Source: Ricordea florida (lineage: Eukaryota; Cnidaria; Anthozoa; Corallimorpharia; Ricordeidae). Taken from it: a DNA stretch of 64,000 nt. The stretch's first letter is position 1. Each line of letters begins with the position of its first letter. This document shows, piece after piece, positions 1-14,600 of this stretch. Below the pieces are notes generated by a model. That model worked only from the letters and a program-made list of their open reading frames with translations. It was not told the DNA's origin and did no database searches. Location of the stretch: assembly GCA_949710005.1 (NCBI GenBank), contig OX453275.1, forward strand, positions 17,008,374 to 17,072,373, read 5' to 3'. Position numbers and translations under genes: made by a program.

Positions 1-600
1 AATCGTTGGAACTAAAATTTTATTCGTTACCTAAACCTGACCCTATATCCTACTATTACATATAGATAAAACATTCCAAATGATTTGATAAGTTACTCCC
101 TTAAATGACGGTCCTTCTGCCCATACATTCTCTTATATGGTGTTTTGACAAAAATCTGTAAGGCTGAGTTTACTTGCAACCAACTCTTGGTATTGTATCT
201 TGTCTTTAAAAATGACTACAATCACGACATAAAATGGATTTTAAATGACATTTTAAATGCTACAAGATGGTAAAAATTGCATGTCCATCTCTAATCTGTG
301 TAATTAGAACTGATTTGTTGAACTTGAGTACTCTCTGAGCAGTATGCTATAGAATTAGCTGCCTTAAGCAAATCTCTTGAAAGCCAAAATACAATACGAC
401 TGCGAATTACAAACAATTTGATTCTTTACGTGGATATTATCCTGTTGTAATACTACAAATCTGCAATATTTTAGATGTGCAAAGATTCTCCAGGCCGAGG
501 TATGATAGAATAACTGTCATTTTAAGTGTTATAGGCAATTGGTGGAAATGCGCATGCGTAGTAACAAAAACTTTATTTCCCTTAAATCAAACGGAAGTCT
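1..600. repeat. Array A unit 1 (class D)
   Basis: Complete 600-bp unit. It shares with unit 11 (6004-6603) a set of variants absent or rare elsewhere: ataagttac near 90, catacattctc near 124, tttacttgcaacc near 168, tagaactgatt near 305 and cgactgcg near 398. It ends in aaacggaagtc, the class D ending. Its first bases read tcgttgga where the other units read tcgttgca. Confidence 0.9.
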
Positions 601-1200
601 AATCGTTGCAACTAAAATTTTATTCGTTACCTAAACCTGACCTTATATCCTACTATTACATATAGATAAAACATTCCAAATGATTTGATAACTTACCCCC
701 TTAAATGACGGTCCTTCTGCCCGTACAATCTCTTATATGGTGTTTTGACAAAAATCTGTCAGGCTGAGTTTCCTCTCAAATATCTCTTGGTATTGTATCT
801 TGTCTTCAAAAATGACTACAATCACGACATAAAATGGATTTTAAATGACATTTTAAATGCTACAAGATGGTAAAAATTGCATGTCCATCACTAATCTTTG
901 TAATGAGGACTGATTTGTTGAACTTGAGTACTCTCTGAGCAGTATGCTATAGAATTATCTGCCTTAAGCAAATATGTTGACAGACAAAATACAATACGAT
1001 TGCCAATTACAAACAATTTGATTCTTTACGTGGATATTATCCTGTTGTAATACTACAAATCTGCAATGTTTCAGAATTGCAAAGATTCTGCAAGCCGAGG
1101 TATAATAGAATAACTGTGATTTTAAGGGTTATAAGCAATTGGCGGAAATGAGCATGCGTAGTAACAAAAAGTTTATTTTCCTTAAATCACTCGGAAATCT
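601..1200. repeat. Array A unit 2 (class E)
   Basis: Complete 600-bp unit. Class E markers are cctctcaaatat near 773, tctttgtaatgagg near 895 and gacagacaaaa near 979. The GC-rich motif is altered to gagcatgcg, which also puts a TGA in a frame that is open in the other fourteen full units. Confidence 0.9.
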
Positions 1201-1801
1201 AATCGTTGCAACTAAAATTTTTTTTCGTTACCTACACCTGACTTTATATCCTACTATTACATATAGATAAAACATTCCAAATGATTTGATAACCTACCCC
1301 CTTAAATAACGGTCGTTCTGCCCATACAATCTCTTATATGGTTTTTTAACAAAAATCTGTAAGGCTGAGTTTCCTTGCAACGAACTCTTGTTATTGTATC
1401 TTGTCTTCAAAAATGGCTACAATCACGACATAAAATGGATTTTAAATGACATTATAAATGCTACAAGATGGTAAAAATTGCATGTCCATCACTAATCTGT
1501 GTAATTGGAACTGATTTGTTGAACTTGAGTACTCTCTGAGCAGTATGCTATAGAATTAGCTGCCTTAAGCAAAGATTTTGACAGCCAAAATACAATACGA
1601 TTGCGAATTACAAACAATTTGATTCTTTACGTGGATATTATCCTGTTGTAATGCTACAAATCTGCAATATTTCAGAATTGCAAAGATTCTGCAGGCCGAG
1701 GTATGATAGAATAACTGTCATTTTAAGGGTTATAGGCCATTGGTGGAAATGCGCATGCGTAGTTACAAAAAGTTTATTTCCCTTAAATCACTTGGAAATC
1801 T
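1201..1801. repeat. Array A unit 3 (class C, 601 bp)
   Basis: Class C unit with one extra T in the T-run near 1219. Other class C markers are cgaactcttgttatt near 1381, cattataaatg near 1450 and the ending cacttggaaatc. It shares these with units 7 and 10. Confidence 0.92.
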
Positions 1802-2401
1802 AATCGTTGCAACTAAAATTTCATTCGTTACCTAAACCTGACTCTATATCCTACTATTACATATATATAAAACATTTCAAATGATTTGATAACTTACCCC
1901 CTTAAATGACGGTCCTTCTGCCCATACAATCTCTTATATGATGTTTTGACAAAAATCTGTAAGGCTGAGTTTCCATGCAACTAACTCTTGGTATTGTATC
2001 TTCTCTTCAAAAATGGCTACAATCACGACATAAAATGGATTTTAAATGACATTTTAAATGCTACAAGATGGTAAAAATTGCATGTCCATCACTAATCTGT
2101 GTAATGAGGACTGATTTGTTGAATTTGAGTACTCTTTGAGCAGTAAGCTATAGAATTAGCTGACTTAAGCAAATATCTTGACAGCCAAAATACAATACGA
2201 TTGCGAATTACAAACAATTTGATTCTTTACGTGGATATTATCCTGTTGTAATACTACAAATCTGCAATATTTTAGAATTGCAAAGATTCTCCAGGCCGAG
2301 GTATGATAGAATAACTGTCATTTTAAGGGATATAGGCAATTGGTGGAAATGCGCATGCGTAGTAACAAAAAGTTTATTTCCCTTAAATCAAACGGAAGTC
2401 T
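1802..2401. repeat. Array A unit 4 (class D)
   Basis: Complete unit directly after a class C unit. It begins with the aaatttcattcg variant shared with unit 11, and similar to unit 8 (aaatttcactcg). It ends in aaacggaagtc and is followed by a class E unit. Confidence 0.88.
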
Positions 2402-3001
2402 AATCGTTGCAACTAAAATTTTATTCGTTACCTAAACCTGACCCTATATCCTACTATTACATATAGATAAAACATTCCAAATGATTTAATAACTTACCCC
2501 GTTAAATGACGGTCCTTCTGCCCATACAATCTCTTATATGGTGTTTTGACAAAAATCTGTCAGGCTGAGTTTCCTCTCAAATATTTCTTGGTATTGTATC
2601 TTGTCTTCAAAAATGACTAGAATCACGACATAAAATGGGTTTTAAATGACATTTTAAATGCTACAAGATGGTAAAAATTGCATGTCCATCACTAATCTTT
2701 GTAATGAGGACTGATTTGTTGAACTTGAGTACTCTCTGAGCAGTATGCTATAGAATTATCTGCCTTAAGCAAATATGTTGATAGACAAAATACAATACGA
2801 TTGCGAATTACAAACAATTTGATTCTTTACGTGGATATTATCCTGTTGTAATACTACAAATCTGCAATGTTTCAGAATTGCAAAGATTCTGCAGGCCGAG
2901 GTATAATAGAATAACTGTGATTTTAAGGGTTATAAGCAATTGGTGGAAATGCGCATGCGTAGTAACAAAAACTTTATTTCCCTTAAATCACTCGGAAAAC
3001 T
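2402..3001. repeat. Array A unit 5 (class E)
   Basis: Class E markers are cctctcaaatat, tctttgtaatgagg and gatagacaaaa. The ending ctcggaaaac is private to this unit. Confidence 0.88.
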
Positions 3002-3601
3002 AATCGTTGCAACTAAAATTTTATTCGTTACCTAAACCTGACTCTATATCCTACTATTACATATAGATAAAACATTCCAAATGATTTGATAACTTACCCC
3101 CTTAAATGACGGTCCTTCTGCCCATACAATCTCTTATATGTTGTTTTGACAAAAATCTGTCAGGCTGAGTTTCCTCTCAACCATCTCTTGGTATTGTATC
3201 TTGTCTTCAAAAATGACTACAATCACGACATAAAATGGATTTTAAATGACATTTTAAATGCTACAAGATGGTAAAAATTGCATGTCCATCACTAATCTGT
3301 GTAATGAGGACTGATTTGTTGAACTTGCGTATTCTCTTAGCAGTATGCTATAGAATTAGCTCCCTTAAGCATATATCTTGACAGCCAAAATACAATACGA
3401 TTGCGAATTACAAAAAATTTGATTCTTTACGTGGATATTATCCTGTTGTAATACTACAAATCTTCAATGTTTCAGAATTGCAAAGATTCTGCAGGCCGAG
3501 GTATGATAGAATAACTGTCATTTTAAGGGTTATAAGCAATTGGTGGAAATGCGCATGCGTAGTAACAAAAAGTTTATTTTCCTTAAATCACTCGGAAATC
3601 T
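3002..3601. repeat. Array A unit 6 (intermediate type)
   Basis: Complete unit with cctctcaaccatctc and an altered cttgcgtattctcttagcag segment resembling unit 15. It shares catatatcttg and aatcttcaatg with unit 9. It sits between a class E and a class C unit and so breaks the strict D-E-C order. It ends in the tttattttcc variant, as do the other two units that precede class C (units 2 and 9). Confidence 0.88.
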
Positions 3602-4202
3602 AATCGTTGCAACTAAAATTTTTTTTCGTTACCTAAACCTGACTTTATATCCTACTATTACATATAGATAAAACATTCCAAATGATTTGATAACTTACCC
3701 CCTTAAATGACGGTCCTTCTGCCCATACAATCTCTTATATGGTTTTTTGACAAAAATCTGTAAGGCTGAGTTTCCTTGCAACGAACTCTTGTTATTGTAT
3801 CTTGTCTTCAAAAATGGCTACAATCACGACATAAAATGGATTTTAAATGACATTATAAATGCTAGAAGATGGTAAAAATTGCATGTCCATCACTAATCTG
3901 TGTAATTGGAACTGATTTGTTGAACTTGAGTACTCTCTGAGCAGTATGCTATAGAATTAGCTGCCTTAAGCAAATATCTTGACAGCCAAAATACAATACG
4001 ATTGCGAATTACAAACAATTTGATTCTTTACGTGGATATTATCCTGTTGTAATGCTACAAATCTGCAATGTTTCAGAATTGCAAAGATTCTGCAGGCGGA
4101 GGTATGATAGAATAACTGTCATTTTAAGGGTTATAGGCAATTGGTGGAAATGCGCATGCGTAGTAACAAAAAGTTTATTTCCCTTAAATCACTTGGAAAT
4201 CT
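3602..4202. repeat. Array A unit 7 (class C, 601 bp)
   Basis: Same class C markers as units 3 and 10: an extra T in the early T-run, cgaactcttgttatt, cattataaatg and the ending cacttggaaatc. It is very close to unit 3, four units upstream. Confidence 0.92.
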
Positions 4203-4802
4203 AATCGTTGCAACTCAAATTTCACTCGTTACCTAAACCTGATTCTATACCCTACTATTACATATAGATAAAACATTCCAAATGATTTGATAACTTACCC
4301 CTTTAAATGACGGTCCTTCTGCCCATACAATCTCTTACATGGTGTTTTGACAAAAATCTATTAGGCTGAGTTTCCTCTCAACCATCTCTTGGTATTTTAT
4401 CTTGTCTTCAAAAATGACTACAATCACGACATAAAAAAGATTTTAAGTGACATTTTAAATGCTACAAGATGGAAAAAATTGCATGTCCATCACTAATCTG
4501 TGTAATGAGGAATGATTTGTTGGACTTGAGTACTCTCTGAGCAGTATGCTATAGAATTAGCTCCCTTAAGCAAATATCTTGACAGCCAAAATACAATACG
4601 ATTGCGAATTACAAACAATTTGATTCTTTACGTGGATATTATCCTGTTGTAATACTACAAATCTGCAATGTTTCAGAATTGCAAAGATTCTGCAGGCCGA
4701 GGTATGATAGAATAGCTGTCATTTTAAGGGTTATAGGCAATTCGTGGAAATTCGCATGCGTAGTAACAAAACGTTTATTTCCCTTAAATCACTCGAAAAT
4801 CT
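4203..4802. repeat. Array A unit 8 (class D variant)
   Basis: Follows a class C unit and starts with aaatttcactcg. It carries several private changes, including cttacatgg, ataaaaaagatttt and attcgtgg with ttcgcatgcg in place of tgcgcatgcg. It ends ctcgaaaatc rather than with the class D ending. Confidence 0.85.
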
Positions 4803-5402
4803 AATCGTTGCAACTCAAATTTTATTCGTTAACTAAACCTGACTCTATATCCTACTATTACATATAGATAAAACATTCCAAATGATTTGATAACTTACCC
4901 CCTTAAATGAAGGTCCTTCTGCCCATACAATCTCTTATATGGTGTTTTGACAAAAATCTGTCAGGCTGAGTTTCCTCTCAAATATCTCTTGGTATTGTAT
5001 CTTGTCTTCAAAAATGACTACAATCACGACATAAAATGGATTTTAAATGACGTTTTAAATGCTACAAGATGGTAAAAATTGCATGTCCATCACTAATCTT
5101 TGTAATGAGGAATGATTTGTTGAACTTGAGTACTCTCTGAGCAGTATGCTATAGAATTAGCTGCCTTAAGCATATATCTTGACAGCCAAAATACAATACG
5201 ATTGCGAATTACAAACAATTTGATTCTTTACGTGGATATTATCCTGTTGTAATACTACAAATCTTCAATGTTTCAGAATTGCAAAGATTCTGCAGGCCGA
5301 GGTATGATAGAGTAACTGTCATTTTCAGGGTTATAAGGAATTGGCGGAAATGCGCTTGCGTAGTAACAAAAAGTTTATTTTCCTTAAATCACTCGGAAAT
5401 CT
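4803..5402. repeat. Array A unit 9 (class E)
   Basis: Complete unit with the class E segment cctctcaaatat and tctttgtaatgagg, but with gacagcc instead of gacagac. Its GC-rich motif reads gcgcttgcg. It ends in the tttattttcc variant that precedes class C units. Confidence 0.87.
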
Positions 5403-6003
5403 AATCGTTGAAACTAAAATTTTTTTTCGTTACCTAAACCTGACTCTATATCCTACTATTACATATAGATAAAACATTCCAAATGATTTGATAACCTACC
5501 CCCTTAAATAACGGTCGTTCTCCCCATACAATCTCTTATATGGTTTTTTGACAAAAATCTGTAAGGCTAAGTTTCCTTGCAACGAACTCTTGTTATTGTA
5601 TCTTGTCTTAAAAAATGGCTACAATCACGACATAAAATGGATTTTAAATGACATTATAAATGCTACAAGATGGTAAAAATTGCATGTCCATCACTAATCT
5701 GTGTAATTGGAACTGATTTGTTGAACTTGAGTACTCTCTGAGCAGTATGCTATAGAATTAGCTTCCTTAAGCAAACATCTTGACAGCCAAAATACAATAC
5801 GTTTGCGACTTACAAACAATTTGATTCTTTACGTGGATATTATCCTGTTGTAATGCTACAAATCTGCAATATTTCAGAATTGCAAAGATTCTGCAGGCCG
5901 AGGTATGATAGAATAACTGTCATTTTAAGGGTTATAAGCAATTGGTGGAAATGCGCATGCGTAGTAACAAAAAGTTTATTTCCCTTAAATCACTTGGAAA
6001 TCT
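5403..6003. repeat. Array A unit 10 (class C, 601 bp)
   Basis: Third class C unit, with the same extra T, cgaactcttgttatt, cattataaatg and ending cacttggaaatc. It follows unit 7 by three units, while units 3 and 7 are four apart. Confidence 0.92.
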
Positions 6004-6603
6004 AATCGTTGCAACTAAAATTTCATTCGTTACCTAAACCTAACTCTATATCCTTTTATTACATATAGATAAAACATTCCAAATGATTTGATAAGTTACC
6101 CCCTTAAATGACGGTCCTTCTGCCCATACATTCTCTTATATGGTGTTTTGACAAAAATCTGTAAGGCTGAGTTTACTTGCAACCAACTCTTGGTATTGTA
6201 TCTTGTCTTTAAAAATGACTACAATCACGACATAAAATGGATTTTAAATGACATTTTAAATGCTACAAGATGGTAAAAATTGCATGTCCATCACTAATCT
6301 GTGTAATTAGAACTGATTTGTTGAACTTGAGTACTCTCTGAGCAGTATGCTATAGAATTAGCTGCCTTAAGCAAATCTCTTGACAACCAAAATACAATAC
6401 GACTGCGAATTACAAACAATTTGATTCTTTACGTGGATATTATCCTGTTGTAATACTACAAATCTGCAATATTTCAGAATTGCAAAGATTCTGCAGGCCG
6501 AGGTATGATAGAATAACTGTCATTTTAAGGGTTATAGGCAATTGGTGGAAATGCGCATGCGTAGTAACAAAAAGTTTATTTCCCTTAAATCAATCGGAAG
6601 TCT
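6004..6603. repeat. Array A unit 11 (class D, near-twin of unit 1)
   Basis: Carries nearly the whole diagnostic variant set of unit 1, ten units (6003 bp) away. Like unit 4 it begins with aaatttcattcg after a class C unit. It ends caatcggaagtc. Confidence 0.9.
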
Positions 6604-7203
6604 AATCGTTGCAAATAAACTTTTATTCGTTATCTAAACCTGACTCTATATCCTACTATTACATATAGATAAAACATTCCAAATGATTTGATAACCTACC
6701 CCCTTAAATAACGGTCCTTCTGCCCATACAATCTCTTATATGGTGTTTTGACAAAAATCTGTAAGGCTGAGTTTCCTTGCAACCAACTCTTGGTATTGTA
6801 TCTTGTCTTCAAAAATGGCTACAATCACGACATAAAATGGATTTTAAATGACATTTTAAATGCTACAAAATGGTAAAAATTGCATGTCCATCACTAATCT
6901 GTGTAATTGGAACTGATTTGTTGAACTTGAGTACTCTCTGAGCAGTATGCTATAGAATTAGCTGCCTTAAGCAAATGTGTTGATTGCCAAAATACAATAC
7001 GATTGCGAATTACAAACAATTTGATTCTTTACGAGGATATTATCCTGTTGTAATGCTACAAATCTGCAATGTTTCAGAAATGCAAAGATTCTGCACGCCG
7101 AGGTATGATAGAATAACTGTCATTTTAAGGGTTATAGGCAATTGGTGGAAATGCGCATGCGTAGTAACAAAAAGTTTATTTCCCTTAAATAAAACGGAAG
7201 TCT
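6604..7203. repeat. Array A unit 12 (class D variant); contains the longest chance open frame
   Basis: Complete unit with ccttgcaaccaactc and the ending aaaacggaagtc, followed by a class E unit. A TTG-initiated open frame of 73 codons runs 6984-7205 across the unit boundary. I do not call it a gene, because nearly every unit of the array has the same open stretch, without an ATG at its start, and no familiar motif is visible. Unit 12 shows a typical copy of the GC-rich palindromic motif tgcgcatgcg at 7152-7161. Confidence 0.88.
7152..7161. other. GC-rich palindromic motif in an AT-rich monomer (representative copy)
   Basis: tgcgcatgcg, containing the 8-bp palindrome cgcatgcg, recurs once per array A unit and is unchanged in most. 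Altered copies are in unit 2 (gagcatgcg), unit 8 (ttcgcatgcg) and unit 9 (gcgcttgcg). The truncated unit 16 ends before it. It is close to the consensus bound by NRF1-type factors (YGCGCAYGCGCR) but lacks the last C, so binding is only a possibility. Similar motifs also occur in some DNA transposon ends. Confidence 0.6.
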
Positions 7204-7803
7204 AATCGTTGCAACTAAAATTTTATTCGTTACCTAAACCTGACCCTATATCCTACTATTACATATAGATAAAACATTCCAAATGATTTGATAACTTACC
7301 CCCTTAAATGACGGTCCTTCTGCCCATACAATCTCTTATATGGTGTTTTGACAAAAATCTGTCAGGCTGAAATTCCTCTCAAATATCTCTTGGTATTGTA
7401 TCTTGTCTTCAAAAATCACTACAATCACGACATAAAATGGATTTTAAATGACATTTTAAATGCTACAAGATGCTAAAAATTGCATGTCCATCACTAATCT
7501 TTGTAATGAGGACTGATTTGTTGAACTTGAGTACTCTCTGAGCAGTATGCTATAGAATTATTTGCCTTAAGCAAATATGTTGACAGACAAAATACAATAC
7601 GATTGCGAATTACAAACAATTTGATTCTTTACGTGGATATTATCCTGTTGTAATACTACAAATCTGCAATGTTTCAGAATTGCAAAGATTCTGCAGGCCG
7701 AGGTATGATAGAATAACTGTCATTTTAAGGGTTTTAGGCAATTGGTGGAAATGCGCATGCGTAGTAAGAAAAAGTTTATTTCCCTTAAGTCACTCGGAAA
7801 TCT
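7204..7803. repeat. Array A unit 13 (class E)
   Basis: Class E markers are cctctcaaatat, tctttgtaatgagg and gacagacaaaa. Private changes include ctgaaattcc near 7367 and gtaagaaaa near 7764. Confidence 0.88.
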
Positions 7804-8403
7804 AATCGTTGCAACTAAAATTTTATTCGTTAGCTAAACCTGACTCTATATCCTACTAATACATATAGATAAAACATTCCAAATGATTTAATAACTTACC
7901 TTCTTAAATGACGGTCCTTCTGTCCATACAATCTCTTATATGGTGTTTTGACAAAAATCTGTCAGGCTGAGTTTCCTCTCAAATAACTCTTGGTATTGTA
8001 TCTTGTCTTCAAAAATGACTACAATCACGACATAAAATGGATTTTAAATGACATTTTAAATGCTACAAGATGGTAAAAATTGCATGTCCATCACTAATCT
8101 TTGTAATGAGGACTGATTTGTTGAACTTGAGTACTCTCTGAGCAGTATGCTATAGAATTATCTGCCTTAAGCAAATATGTTGACAGACAAAATACAATAC
8201 GATTGCGAATTACCAACAATTTGATTCTTTACGTGGATATTATCCTGTTGTAATACTACAAATCTGCAATGTTTCAGAATTGCAAAGATTCTGCAGGCCG
8301 AGGTATAATAGAATAACTGTCATTTTAAGGGTTATAAGCAATTGGTGGAAATGCGCATGCGTAGTAACAAAAACTTTATTTCCCTTAAATCACTCGGAAA
8401 TCT
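7804..8403. repeat. Array A unit 14 (class E variant)
   Basis: Close to class E (tctttgtaatgagg, gacagacaaaa), but with cctctcaaataactc and private changes such as cttaccttctt near 7896. Confidence 0.86.
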
Positions 8404-9003
8404 AATCGTTGCAACTCAAATTTTATTCGTTACCTAAACCTGACTCTATATCCTACTATTACATATAGATAAAACATTCCAAATGATTTGATAACTTACC
8501 CCCTTAAATGACGGTTCTTCTGCCCATACAATCTCTTATATGGTGTTTTGACAAAAATCTGTCAGGCTGAGTTTCCTTGCAACCATCTCTTGGTATTGTA
8601 TCTTGTCTTCAAAAATGACTACAATCACGACATAAAATGGATTTTAAATGACATTTTAAATGCTACAAGATGGTAAAAATTCCATGTCCATCACTAATCT
8701 GTGTAATGAGGACTGATTTGTTGAACTTGCGTACTCTCTTAGCAGTATGCTATAGAGTTAGCTGCCTTAAGCAAATATCTTGACAGCCAAAATACAATAC
8801 GATTGCGAATTACAAACAATTTGATTCTTTACGTGGATATTATCCTGTTGTAATACTACAAATCTGCAATGTTTCAGAATTGCAAAGATTCTGTAGGCCG
8901 AGGTATAATAGAATAATTGTCATTTTAAGGGTTATAGGCAATTGGTGGAAATGCGCATGCGTAGTAACAAAAAGTTTGTTTCCCTTAAGTCACTCGGAAA
9001 TCT
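8404..9003. repeat. Array A unit 15 (intermediate type)
   Basis: Complete unit with ccttgcaaccatctc and cttgcgtactctcttagcag, the latter shared in part with unit 6. It has private changes near its end, including tctgtaggcc and aagtttgtttccc. Confidence 0.86.
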
Positions 9004-9486
9004 AATCGTTGCAACTAAAATTTTATTCGTTACCAAAACCTGACTCTATATACTACTATTACATATAGATAAAACATTCCAAATGATTTGATAACTTACC
9101 CCCTTAAATGACGGTCGTTCTGCCAATACAATCTCTTATATGGTGTTTTGACTAAAATCTGTGAGGCCGAGTTTTCTCTCAACCATCTCTTGGAATTGTA
9201 TCTTGTCTTTAAAAATGACTACAATCACGACATAAAATGGATTTTAAATGACATTTTAAATGCTACAAGATGGTAAAAATTGCATGTCCATTACTAATCT
9301 GTGTAATGAGGACTGATTTGTTGAATTTGAGTACTGTGTGAGCAGTATGCTATAGAATTAGCTCCCTAAATCAAATATCTTGACAGCCAAAATACAATAC
9401 GATTAAGAATAGCAATCCATTTGATTCTTTAGGTGGATAATGTCTTGTTGTAATACTACAAATCTGCAAAGTTTTAGAATTGCAAG
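9004..9486. repeat. Array A unit 16: truncated and divergent edge unit
   Basis: The first ~350 bp match other units well. Differences then accumulate (gtactgtgtgag near 9331, ctccctaaatc near 9362, gattaagaatagcaatcc near 9401, aggtggataatgtc near 9431). Recognisable similarity ends near 9486, about 115 bp short of a full unit. Divergence rising toward an array end is typical of satellite edges, where exchange with inner copies is weaker. Confidence 0.88.
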
Positions 9487-9514
9487 AATTCAAGTGCCAG
9501 GATTAGATTTGCAA
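9487..9514. other. Unassigned filler between array A and array B
   Basis: About 28 bp that I cannot place confidently in either monomer. It is bounded by two copies of ttgcaag (9480-9486 and 9509-9515). It could be filler made at the breakpoint, or a badly decayed continuation of unit 16: attc, then gcc, then agg appear in the same order as in the A unit. Confidence 0.6.
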
Positions 9515-9737
9515 GTAAGCGTTAGTGTACAAAAGCTAGTCTACTTGAAAGGGCCATTTCTCGGGTTGTACTGAACCGATTTGAGTGATCCATAGATCAA
9601 AACTTAGCTAAGAAGATGTAGATTGTGTGATATAATTTTCAGAGGGCTTTACTTAGCCGTTTTTGAGAACGAGCTATTCTAAAACAGTTTAATTTCTCAA
9701 AATCAGCCCGTACGGTCGCGTAAGGGTTAGTGTACAA
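9515..9737 (-). repeat. Array B monomer in reverse orientation (about 1.1 units)
   Basis: Reads as the reverse complement of the array B monomer. It covers one full 205-bp cycle (9515-9719) plus about 18 bp of the next, where gtaagcgttag has become gtaagggttag. It is the only inverted B copy in the window. The switch to forward orientation falls within gtacaatagct. There aa (9736-9737) is common to both expected continuations, a 2-bp microhomology. Confidence 0.95.
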
Positions 9738-9899
9738 TAGCTCGTTCTCAAAAACGGCTAAGTAAACCCCTCTGAAAATTATATCACACAATCTACATCT
9801 TCTTATCTAAATTTTGATCTATGGATCACTGAAATCGGTTCAGTACAACCCGAGAAATGGCCCATTCAAGTAGACTAGCTTTTGTACACTAACGCTTAC
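9515..9899. repeat. Long inverted repeat at the array junction (164-bp arms, 57-bp spacer)
   Basis: The left arm 9515-9678 is the reverse complement of the right arm 9736-9899, with 5 mismatches in 164 positions by my alignment. The spacer is 9679-9735. The pairing stops sharply at 9515, where the left sequence becomes filler. Such a head-to-head structure can extrude a hairpin or cruciform and is a classic product of fold-back template switching. An assembly artefact should also be considered. Confidence 0.93.
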
Positions 9900-9940
9900 T
9901 CGACCGTACGGGCTGATTTTGAGCAATTAAACTGTTTTAG
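9736..9940 (+). repeat. First forward array B monomer, divergent edge copy
   Basis: Carries several changes not shared with the inner monomers: ttatctaaat near 9804, cactgaaatc near 9827, cccattcaag near 9861, cttactcgacc near 9895 and gagcaatt near 9921. The next monomers are close to consensus. Together with the decayed last A unit, this makes the junction the least homogenised part of the window. Confidence 0.88.
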
Positions 9941-10260
9941 AATAGCTCGTTCTCAAAAACGGCTAAGTAAACCCCTCTGAAAATTATATCACACAATCTA
10001 CATCTTCTTAGCTAAATTTTGATCTATGGATCACTCCAATCGGTTCAGTACAACCCGAGAAATGGCCCTTTCAAGTAGACTAGCTTTTGTACACTAACGC
10101 TTACGCGACCGTACGGGCTGATTTTGAGAAATTAAACTGTTTTAGAATAGCTCGTTCTCAAAAACGGCTAAGTAAACCCCTCTGAAAATTATATCACACA
10201 ATCTACATCTTCTTAGCTAAATTTTGATCTATGGATCACTCAAATCGGTTCAGTACAACC

Positions 10261-11640
10261 CGAGAAATGGCCCTTTCAAGTAGACTAGCTTTTGTACACC
10301 AACGCTTACGCGACCGTACGGGCTGATTTTGAGAAATTAAACTGTTTTAGAATAGCTCGTTCTCAAAAACGGCTAAGTAAACCCCTCTGAAAATTATATC
10401 ACACAATCTACATCTTCTTAGCTAAATTTTGATCTATGGATCACTCAAATCGGTTCAGTACAACCCGAGAAATGGCCCTTTCAAGTAGACTAGCTTTTGT
10501 ACACTAACGCTTACGCGACCGTACGGGCTGATTTTGAGAAATTAAACTGTTTTAGAATAGCTCGTTCTCAAAAACGGCTAATAAACCCCTCTGAAAATTA
10601 TATCACACAATCTACATCTTCTTAGCTAAATTTTGATCTATGGATCACTCAAATCGGTTCAGTACAACCCGAGAAATGGCCCTTTCAAGTAGACTAGCTT
10701 TTGTACACTAACGCTTACGCGACCGTACGGGCTGATTTTGAGAAATTAAACTGTTTTAGAATAGCTCGTTCTCAAAAACGGCTAAGTAAACCCCTCTGAA
10801 AATTATATCACACAATCTACATCTTCTTAGCTATATTTTGATCTATGGATCACTCAAATCGGTTCAGTACAACCCGAGAAATGGCCCTTTCAAGTAGACT
10901 AGCTTTTGTACACTAACGCTTACGCGACCGTACGGGCTGATTTTGAGAAATTAAACTGTTTTAGAATAGCTCGTTCTCAAAAACGGCTAAGTAAACCCCT
11001 CTGAAAATTATATCACACAATCTACATCTTCTTAGCTAAATTTTGATCTATGGATCACTCAAATCGGTTCAGTACAACCCGAGAAATGGCCCTTTCAAGT
11101 AGACTAGCTTTTGTACACTAACGCTTACGCGACCGTACGGGCTGATTTTGAGAAATTAAACTGTTTTAGAATAGCTCGTTCTCAAAAACGGCTAAGTAAA
11201 CCCCTCTGAAAATTATATCACACAATCTACATCTTCTTAGCTAAATTTTGATCTATGGATCACTCAAATCGGTTCAGTACAACCCGAGAAATGGCCCTTT
11301 CAAGTAGACTAGCTTTTGTACACCAACGCTTACGCGACCGTACGGGCTGATTTTGAGAAATTAAACTGTTTTAGAATAGCTCGTTCTCAAAAACGGCTAA
11401 GTAAACCCCTCTGAAAATTATATCACACAATCTACATCTTCTTAGCTAAATTTTGATCTATGGATCACTCAAATCGGTTCAGTACAACCCGAGAAATGGC
11501 CCTTTCAAGTAGACTAGCTTTTGTACACTAACGCTTACGCGACCGTACGGGCTGATTTTGAGAAATTAAACTGTTTTAGAATAGCTCGTTCTCAAAAACG
11601 GCTAATAAACCCCTCTGAAAATTATATCACACAATCTACA
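10261..11640 (+). repeat. Array B block: 5-monomer duplication (offset 1024 bp)
   Basis: The linked variants gtacaccaacg (10297 and 11321) and ctaataaac, a 1-bp loss (10578 and 11602), recur with the same spacing 1024 bp apart, that is 5 x 205 minus the lost base. Nearby monomers are otherwise close to consensus. Confidence 0.78.
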
Positions 11641-14600
11641 TCTTCTTAGCTAAATTTTGATCTATGGATCACTCGAATCGGTTCAGTACAACCCGAGAAA
11701 TGGCCCTTTCAAGTAGACTAGCTTTTGTACACTAACGCTTACGCGACCGTACGGGCTGATTTTGAGAAATTAAACTGTTTTAGAATAGCTCGTTCTCAAA
11801 AACGGCTAAGTAAACCCCTCTGAAAATTATATCACACAATCTACATCTTCTTAGCTAAATTTTGATCTATGGATCACTCAAATCGGTTCAGTACAACCCG
11901 AGAAATGGCCCTTTCAAGTAGACTAGCTTTTGTACACTAACGCTTACGCGACCGTACGGGCTGATTTTGAGAAATTAAACTGTTTTAGAATAGCTCGTTC
12001 TCAAAAACGGCTAAGTAAACCCCTCTGAAAATTATATCACACAATCTACATCTTCTTAGCTATATTTTGATCTATGGATCACTCAAATCGGTTCAGTACA
12101 ACCCGAGAAATGGCCCTTTCAAGTAGACTAGCTTTTGTACACTAACGCTTACGCGACCGTACGGGCTGATTTTGAGAAATTAAACTGTTTTAGAATAGCT
12201 CGTTCTCAAAAACGGCTAAGTAAACCCCTCTGAAAATTATATCACACAATCTACATCTTCTTAGCTAAATTTTGATCTATGGATCACTCAAATCGGTTCA
12301 GTACAACCCGAGAAATGGCCCTTTCAAGTAGACTAGCTTTTGTACACTAACGCTTACGCGACCGTACGGGCTGATTTTGAGAAATTAAACTGTTTTAGAA
12401 TAGCTCGTTCTCAAAAACGGCTAAGTAAACCCCTCTGAAAATTATATCACACAATCTACATCTTCTTAGCTAAATTTTGATCTATGGATCACTCAAATCG
12501 GTTCAGTACAAGCCGAAAAATGGCCCTTTCAAGTAGACTAGCTTTTGTACACTAACGCTTACGCGACCGTACGGGCTGATTTTGAGAAATTAAACTGTTT
12601 TAGAATAGCTCGTTCTCAAAAACGGCTAAGTAAACCCCTCTGAAAATTATATCACACAATCTACATCTTCTTAGCTAAATTTTGATCTATGGATCACTCA
12701 AATCGGTTCAGTACAACCCGAGAAATAGCCCTTTCAAGTAGACTAGCTTTTGTACACTAACGCTTACGCGACCATACGGGCTGATTTTGAGAAATTAAAC
12801 TGTTTTAGAATAGCTCGTTCTCAAAAACGGCTAAGTAAACCCCTCTGAAAATTATATCACACAATCTACATCTTCTTAGCTAAATTTTGATCTATGGATC
12901 ACTCAAATCGGTTCAGTACAACCCGAGAAATGGCCCTTTCAAGTAGACTAGCTTTTGTACACTAACGCTTACGCGACCGTACGGGCTGATTTTGAGAAAT
13001 TAAACTGTTTTAGAATAGCTCGTTCTCAAAAACGGCTAAGTAAACCCCTCTGAAAATTATATCACACAATCTACATCTTCTTAGCTAAATTTTGATCTAT
13101 GGATCACTCAAATCGGTTCAGTACAACCCGAGAAATGGCCCTTTCAAGTAGACTAGCTTTTGTACACTAACGCTTACGCGACCGTACGGGCTGATTTTGA
13201 GAAATTAAACTGTTTTAGAATAGCTCGTTCTCAAAAACGGCTAAGTAAACCTTTCTGAAAATTATATCATACAATCTACATCTTCTTAGCTAAATTTTGA
13301 TCTATGGATCACTCAAATCGGTTCAGTACAACCCGAGAAATGGCCCTTTCAAGTAGACTAGCTTTTGTACACTAACGCTTACGCGACCGTACGGGCTGAT
13401 TTTGAGAAATTAAACTATCTTAGAATAGCTCGTTCTATAAAACGGCTGAGTAAACCCCTCTGAAAATTATATCACACAATCTACATCTTCTTAGCTAAAT
13501 TTTGATCTATGGATCACTCAAATCGGTTCAGTACAACCCGAGAAATGGCCCTTTCAAGTAGACTAGCTTTTGTACACTAACGCTTACGCGACCGTACGGG
13601 CTGATTTTGAGAAATTAAACTGTTTTAGAATAGCTCGTTCTCAAAAACGGCTAAGTAAACCCCTCTGAAAATTATATCACACAATCTACATCTTCTTAGC
13701 TAAATTTTGATCTATGGATCACTCAAATCGGTTCAGTACAACCCGAGAAATGGCCCTTTCAAGTAGACTAGCTTTTGTACACTAACTTTTACGCGACCGT
13801 ACGGGCTGATTTTGAGAAATTAAACTGTCTTAGAATAGCTCGTTCTCAAAAACGGGTAAGTAAACCCCTCTGAAAATTATATCACACAATCTACATCTTC
13901 TTAGCTAAATTTTGATCTATGGATCACTCAAATCGGTTCAGTACTACCCGAGAAATGGCCCTTTCAAGTAGACTAGCTTTTGTACACTAACGCTTACGCG
14001 ACCGTACGGGCTGATTTTGAGAAATTAAACTGTTTTAGAATAGCTCGTTCTCAAAAACGGCTAAGTAAACCCCTCTGAAAATTATATCACACAATCTACA
14101 TCTTCTTAGCTATATTTTGATCTATGGATCACTCAAATCGGTTCAGTACAACCCGAGAAATGGCCCTTTCAAGTAGACTAGCTTTTGTACACTAACGCTT
14201 ACGCGACCGTACGGGCTGATTTTGAGAAATTAAACTGTTTTAGAATAGCTCGTTCTCAAAAACGGCTAAGTAAACCCCTCTGAAAATTATATCACACAAT
14301 CTACATCTTCTTAGCTAAATTTTGATCTATGGATCACTCAAATCGGTTCAGTACAACCCGAGAAATGGCCCTTTCAAGTAGACTAGCTTTTGTACACTAA
14401 CGCTTACGCGACCGTACGGGCTGATTTTGAGAAATTAAACTGTTTTAGAATAGCTCGTTCTCAAAAACGGCTAAGTAAACCCCTCTGAAAATTATATCAC
14501 ACAATCTACATCTTCTTAGCTAAATTTTGATCTATGGATCACTCAAATCGGTTCAGTACAACCCGAGAAATGGCCCTTTCAAGTAGACTAGCTTTTGTAC

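Follow-up and report, generated by a model that had tools for sequence, protein, structure and literature searches.

Two tandem satellite arrays meet in the 64-kb stretch of DNA analysed here (the window), satellite A first and then satellite B, and their border has the appearance of a repair scar. In the reading that we consider rather probable, the edge of B was reversed by a fold-back or strand switch, the reversed end was attached to A by an error-prone join, and the edge then escaped homogenisation. The case is built on the anatomy of the border, the imperfect homology at the point where orientation flips, a duplicated TTGCAA and the decay of the border units, all of which can be read directly from the DNA.

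Results

Organisation of the satellite arrays

The features of the border are collected in Table 1. As had been claimed in the original prediction, array A stops in the middle of a unit, its last match to its own unit lying at 9485, and 223 bp of B follow in reverse (9515-9737); the A/B breakpoint cuts both units mid-way. A BLAST search with a B dimer (E up to 10) gave three overlapping minus-strand matches, all within 9515-9742, and no other reversed B in the 64-kb window. No reversed A was seen, as nothing in the window matched the stretch 1-9514 on the minus strand at E 1. The border therefore holds the single orientation change found in the 64 kb.

Table 1. Features of the satellite A/satellite B border, in window coordinates
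Feature	Position	Strand	Remarks
Satellite A, ~600-bp unit	1-9485	+	Autocorrelation peak at 600; seed-dimer BLAST ends at 9485
Satellite A, composition			15 units plus the last partial unit; first unit one base short in the chosen phase
Last A unit, truncated and degenerate, 483 bp	9003-9485	+	24 private variants
Filler, 29 bp	9486-9514		TTGCAA at 9509-9514 duplicates the end of A
Reversed B segment, 223 bp	9515-9737	-	Full monomer plus 18 bp; minus-strand BLAST
Orientation switch	9736-9746		2-bp exact overlap within 8-of-11 inverted homeology, AGCT core
First forward B monomer	9736-9940	+	5 private substitutions: positions 71, 96, 129, 165, 189
Forward B monomers 2-17	9941-13218	+	Most homogeneous 16-monomer block in the B array
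Satellite B forward array, 205-bp unit	9736-64000	+	Runs to the window end

Counted to the end of the window, B amounts to 264.7 copies (Tandem Repeats Finder), and 264 monomers, cut from 9736 to 63853, were used for the comparisons below. Mean pairwise identity, sampled at every third monomer, is 97.2%. The mean difference between pairs of monomers hardly changes with lag (5.26 at lag 1 and 5.33 at lag 200; 5.0-5.7 over lags 1-149 when counted from monomer 18), so that B gave no sign of a regular higher-order repeat. Within 13219-63853, sets of variants recur in neighbouring pairs of monomers at irregular spacing (for example 70/71, 75/76, 78/79, 93/94, 194/195 and 214/215), and by their pattern these appear to be copied multi-monomer blocks without a regular higher-order repeat. 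Monomers 2-17 show only 1.44 mean pairwise differences, a value as low as which was reached in none of 300 permutations of monomer order; the best 16-monomer block elsewhere has 3.3 and the other fixed blocks 3.9-6.7. Two variants in this block recur at lag 5 and one at lag 6, which suggests short, recent duplications just inside the array edge.

Neither satellite has an excess of transitions among its distinct variant alleles (63 transitions to 77 transversions in B, 67 to 91 in A), and the ratio of observed to expected CpG is 1.2 in B and 0.64 in A. Judged by the CpG and transition yardstick for methylated vertebrate repeats, the CpG ratio and the transversion excess of B would be odd for such a repeat and speak against it; the CpG figure of A does so less. 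Some sites of B carry three alternative bases, as in site 25 (14, 9 and 9 monomers) and site 9 (7, 5 and 2 monomers).

Searches for relatives of the two satellites gave little. The sequence reached the gathering score of no Rfam family, and a pattern for the CENP-B box, written from the commonly known motif, is absent from both strands of the A and B consensus. Exact matches to B patterns numbered zero in viral, bacterial and archaeal contig collections, as did those to A patterns in viral contigs, and BLAST found no distant match of 9515-10350 in plasmids or of 8400-10350 in phages, results that have little bearing on a eukaryote. A literature search by unit length (205-bp or 600-bp satellite) found neither satellite, apart from a lead in Xenopus tropicalis that is taken up in the Discussion.

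The inverted repeat and the orientation flip

The arms of the inverted repeat, 9515-9678 and 9736-9899, are exactly as first described, 164 bp long with 5 mismatches and a 57-bp spacer. The idea that some of the mismatches lie in a divergent first forward monomer also holds, as three of the five are private variants of that monomer (71, 96 and 129); the other two come from the reversed unit (32 and 76). A single strand of 9515-9899 can, by prediction, fold strongly into one long hairpin (-187.5 kcal/mol as single-stranded DNA), and none of 100 shuffles, with a mean of -33.0 kcal/mol (sd 3.6), folds as well.

With a period of 205 bp in B, many registers are possible for the reversed piece. At its full 223 bp it also pairs with 9882-10104, its nearest placement, with 6 mismatches and a 144-bp spacer, and 253 further ungapped placements on the plus strand bring the number to 254, each with fewer than 40 mismatches. 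The 18 best have 3 mismatches each and are scattered from 10906 to 62172. The 57-bp spacer was therefore measured correctly but is not unique, its length depending on the register chosen. In either register an inverted copy adjoins a forward source across a spacer. The 57-bp and 144-bp spacers stand for two histories, between which the variants do not discriminate: either synthesis switched to the other strand immediately to the left, or the strand folded back on itself.

The flip had been placed at a 2-bp microhomology. The exact overlap is indeed two bases (AA, 9736-9737), but it sits in a longer, imperfect inverted homology, in which uninterrupted reverse B matches forward B at 8 positions out of 11, with AGCT in common. 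When switch points were sampled from the B consensus as a 69 x 69 grid, and the best of 13 shifts was taken for every one of them, about 0.9% (0.8-1.4% by window size) scored as well as the real flip, a test that concerns one event only.

The join between the arrays

Between the arrays, about 28 bp of filler had been described between 7-bp direct repeats, TTGCAAG. The repeat is present, and its copies at 9480-9486 and 9509-9515 are the only two on the plus strand (on the minus strand it occurs at 7 places, in A), but the filler measures 29 bp and the final G of the second copy belongs to B, so that the filler itself repeats the six bases TTGCAA. These are the last six bases of A, at 9480-9485, and their second copy abuts the first base of reversed B. 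In all 13 interior copies of A located by a 10-base anchor, TTGCAA is followed by AGATTCT; at the join the sequence changes at once. From the base composition of A, an exact repeat of TTGCAA at this fixed place has a probability of 3e-4, a figure made post hoc.

For the 23 bp that precede TTGCAA in the filler, neither A nor B offers a significant exact match, the longest giving P 0.26 against the last A unit and 0.13 against B. The filler as a whole was accordingly dropped as a copy of A or B, TTGCAA apart, and a templated-insert step rests on six bases. An alignment anchored to the continuation of A gave P 0.03 when limited to the 23 bp and 0.07 over the complete 29 bp, so that some of the filler may derive from A by decay. 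An enrichment of palindromes at the join was also rejected: three 6-bp palindromes fall within 60 bp there, but 12.4% of 60-bp windows of A match that.

Sequence decay at the border

Private variants are absent from 221 of the 264 forward monomers; 36 monomers have one, six have two, and one, the first, has five. The reversed piece differs from the B consensus at three positions. Two of these variants occur in none of the 264 forward monomers, and the third, 159 G>C, is found in monomers 113 and 131 only; none is common to forward monomer 1 or 2, and the piece shows no diagnostic link to a nearby donor. All private changes of the reversed piece and of the first forward monomer are substitutions, with no indels. 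On the other side, the last unit of A differs from its consensus at 32 positions, 19 of them in its right half, and its private variants compare with 1-13 in the 15 other units. Border monomers are more diverged than interior ones in both arrays; against simple edge decay stands the homogeneity of monomers 2-17, just inside the edge of B.

The reversed monomer and the first forward monomer have no common departure from the present B consensus. If both date from the flip, the consensus would therefore have stayed unmoved since then at the sites where both could show change.

Discussion

We propose that the left edge of the B array once ended in a break or a stalled fork, from which synthesis went on by fold-back or strand switch. 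A nascent bottom strand ending in ...GAGCTATT would have annealed, with 8 of 11 positions matching, to the AGCTTTT site of B, and copying back for 223 bp would have yielded one reversed monomer. The reversed end may then have been tied to the broken A unit by error-prone end joining, which would have left the 29 bp of filler, the last six of them copied from the end of A. Joining of the polymerase-theta type can make filler that is copied from a flanking end. We infer the enzymes, and the order of these events, from what they would have left behind. The border units would from then on have lain outside the zone homogenised by unequal exchange, and for that reason would have retained their private mutations. 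Fold-back or template-switch repair, as in the original prediction, is the best-supported reading of the border, and it may have taken place, as that prediction had it, at the time when B joined A.

Two other explanations are serious rivals. The reversed segment may be what is left of a once longer subarray of reversed B (a macro-dyad), trimmed to one monomer by a deletion that brought A adjacent to it; we regard this as unlikely, though it agrees with a breakpoint that cuts both units mid-way. A precedent is described for the arrays of Tribolium madens, in which subarrays of opposite orientation are common, the units at inversion points are degenerate, satellites are sharply truncated at transitions, and a 6-nt motif is duplicated where one transition, TRANS_2, is truncated (PMC13081366). 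The border analysed here is like these in the meeting of truncated satellites, the flip of orientation, the degenerate border units and the duplicated 6-nt motif. It differs from them in that T. madens has thousands of near-identical copies and kilobase-long reversed subarrays, whereas here one copy is known and a single reversed monomer lies at the border; moreover, the degenerate TmSat1 unit is given as 10.7-23.5% diverged (PMC13081366), against 2.4% (5/205) for the first forward B monomer. A trimmed subarray would also require an extra, large deletion, and the reversed part is just 223 bp long, with no other reversed B found in the window.

The second rival is an artefact: a read could be chimeric, amplification could have made an inverted chimera, or a contig end could have been misjoined. 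Strand-displacement amplification is known to yield inverted chimeras at short homologies, assemblies often fail at the edges of long tandem arrays, and the flip lies exactly at such an edge. A copying artefact, however, should match its source almost exactly. The first forward monomer has five private substitutions, where the remaining 263 have 0-2 each; two variants are private to the reversed piece (a number found in six of those 263 forward monomers), and 24 to the last unit of A. The earlier argument for an aged structure gains support from these private substitutions, which occur on both sides of the border and in the reversed piece, and since they weigh against an artefact we think this explanation improbable.

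It is very improbable that the border is a conserved, possibly functional element (a boundary, hairpin or cruciform) that has been retained or has spread where A and B meet, even though its single strand is predicted to fold strongly and the inversion segments of T. madens, for which a possible structural role is proposed by the authors, are reported to be 98-99% conserved over thousands of copies (PMC13081366). Here one copy is known, and the pairing of the arms is apparently decaying, as the two arms carry different private substitutions; we infer that no function is attached to the border. There is equally little likelihood that the reversed-monomer border is a recurrent, conserved cassette found throughout the genome where A joins B, whose long hairpin would block unequal exchange and fix the edge of B, with new amplification starting just inside it, at monomers 2-17.

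For the proposed repair scar, parallels exist on both the satellite and the repair side. In the PSR chromosome of Nasonia vitripennis, palindromes lie at the junctions of repeat families (Reed et al. 1994, as cited in PMC5139131); the likeness consists in a palindrome that is associated with recombination at the junction of two satellite arrays. The same source states that the outermost monomers of an array have often degenerated because homogenisation is lacking there, that variability was low near satellite junctions in its own mollusc sample, that junctions do not require palindromes, and that little is known of the transitions from satellites to other sequences (PMC5139131). Among human inverted duplications, 13 of 21 sequenced junctions are reported with 2-8 bp of inverted microhomology, and spacers measure 766-70,466 bp (PMC3907307). 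In yeast, foldback hairpins have stems down to 4 bp and loops with a median of 36 nt and up to thousands when MRE11 and SAE2 are intact (PMC7467729), and inversion junctions are described at interrupted inverted repeats of 2-14 bp, mostly spanning 40-80 bp (PMC10766183). As in these systems, the flip at the A/B border lies at a short inverted homology and leaves a spacer, and bases are inserted at some breakpoints (PMC3907307, PMC7467729, PMC10766183). The human and yeast cases are large duplications as described, whereas here 223 bp are copied inside a tandem array, the spacer measures 57 or 144 bp and the homology is imperfect.

The Cenp-a-bound centromere repeat of Xenopus tropicalis has a 205-bp unit, an identity above 95% and one especially variable segment (PMC10794172). 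B is like it in unit length and identity, a comparison made by description only; in this one array, the variability of B is spread along the unit, at 0.6-2.3% per bin.

Scars of this kind at satellite borders are already known, and the A/B border is a new and well-resolved case. As both breakpoints, the homology at the switch and the private mutations are found in one place, it can be used to test how satellites are joined and why homogenisation ceases at their edges. Should the border recur, it would also be relevant to a possible role of inverted monomers as boundaries.
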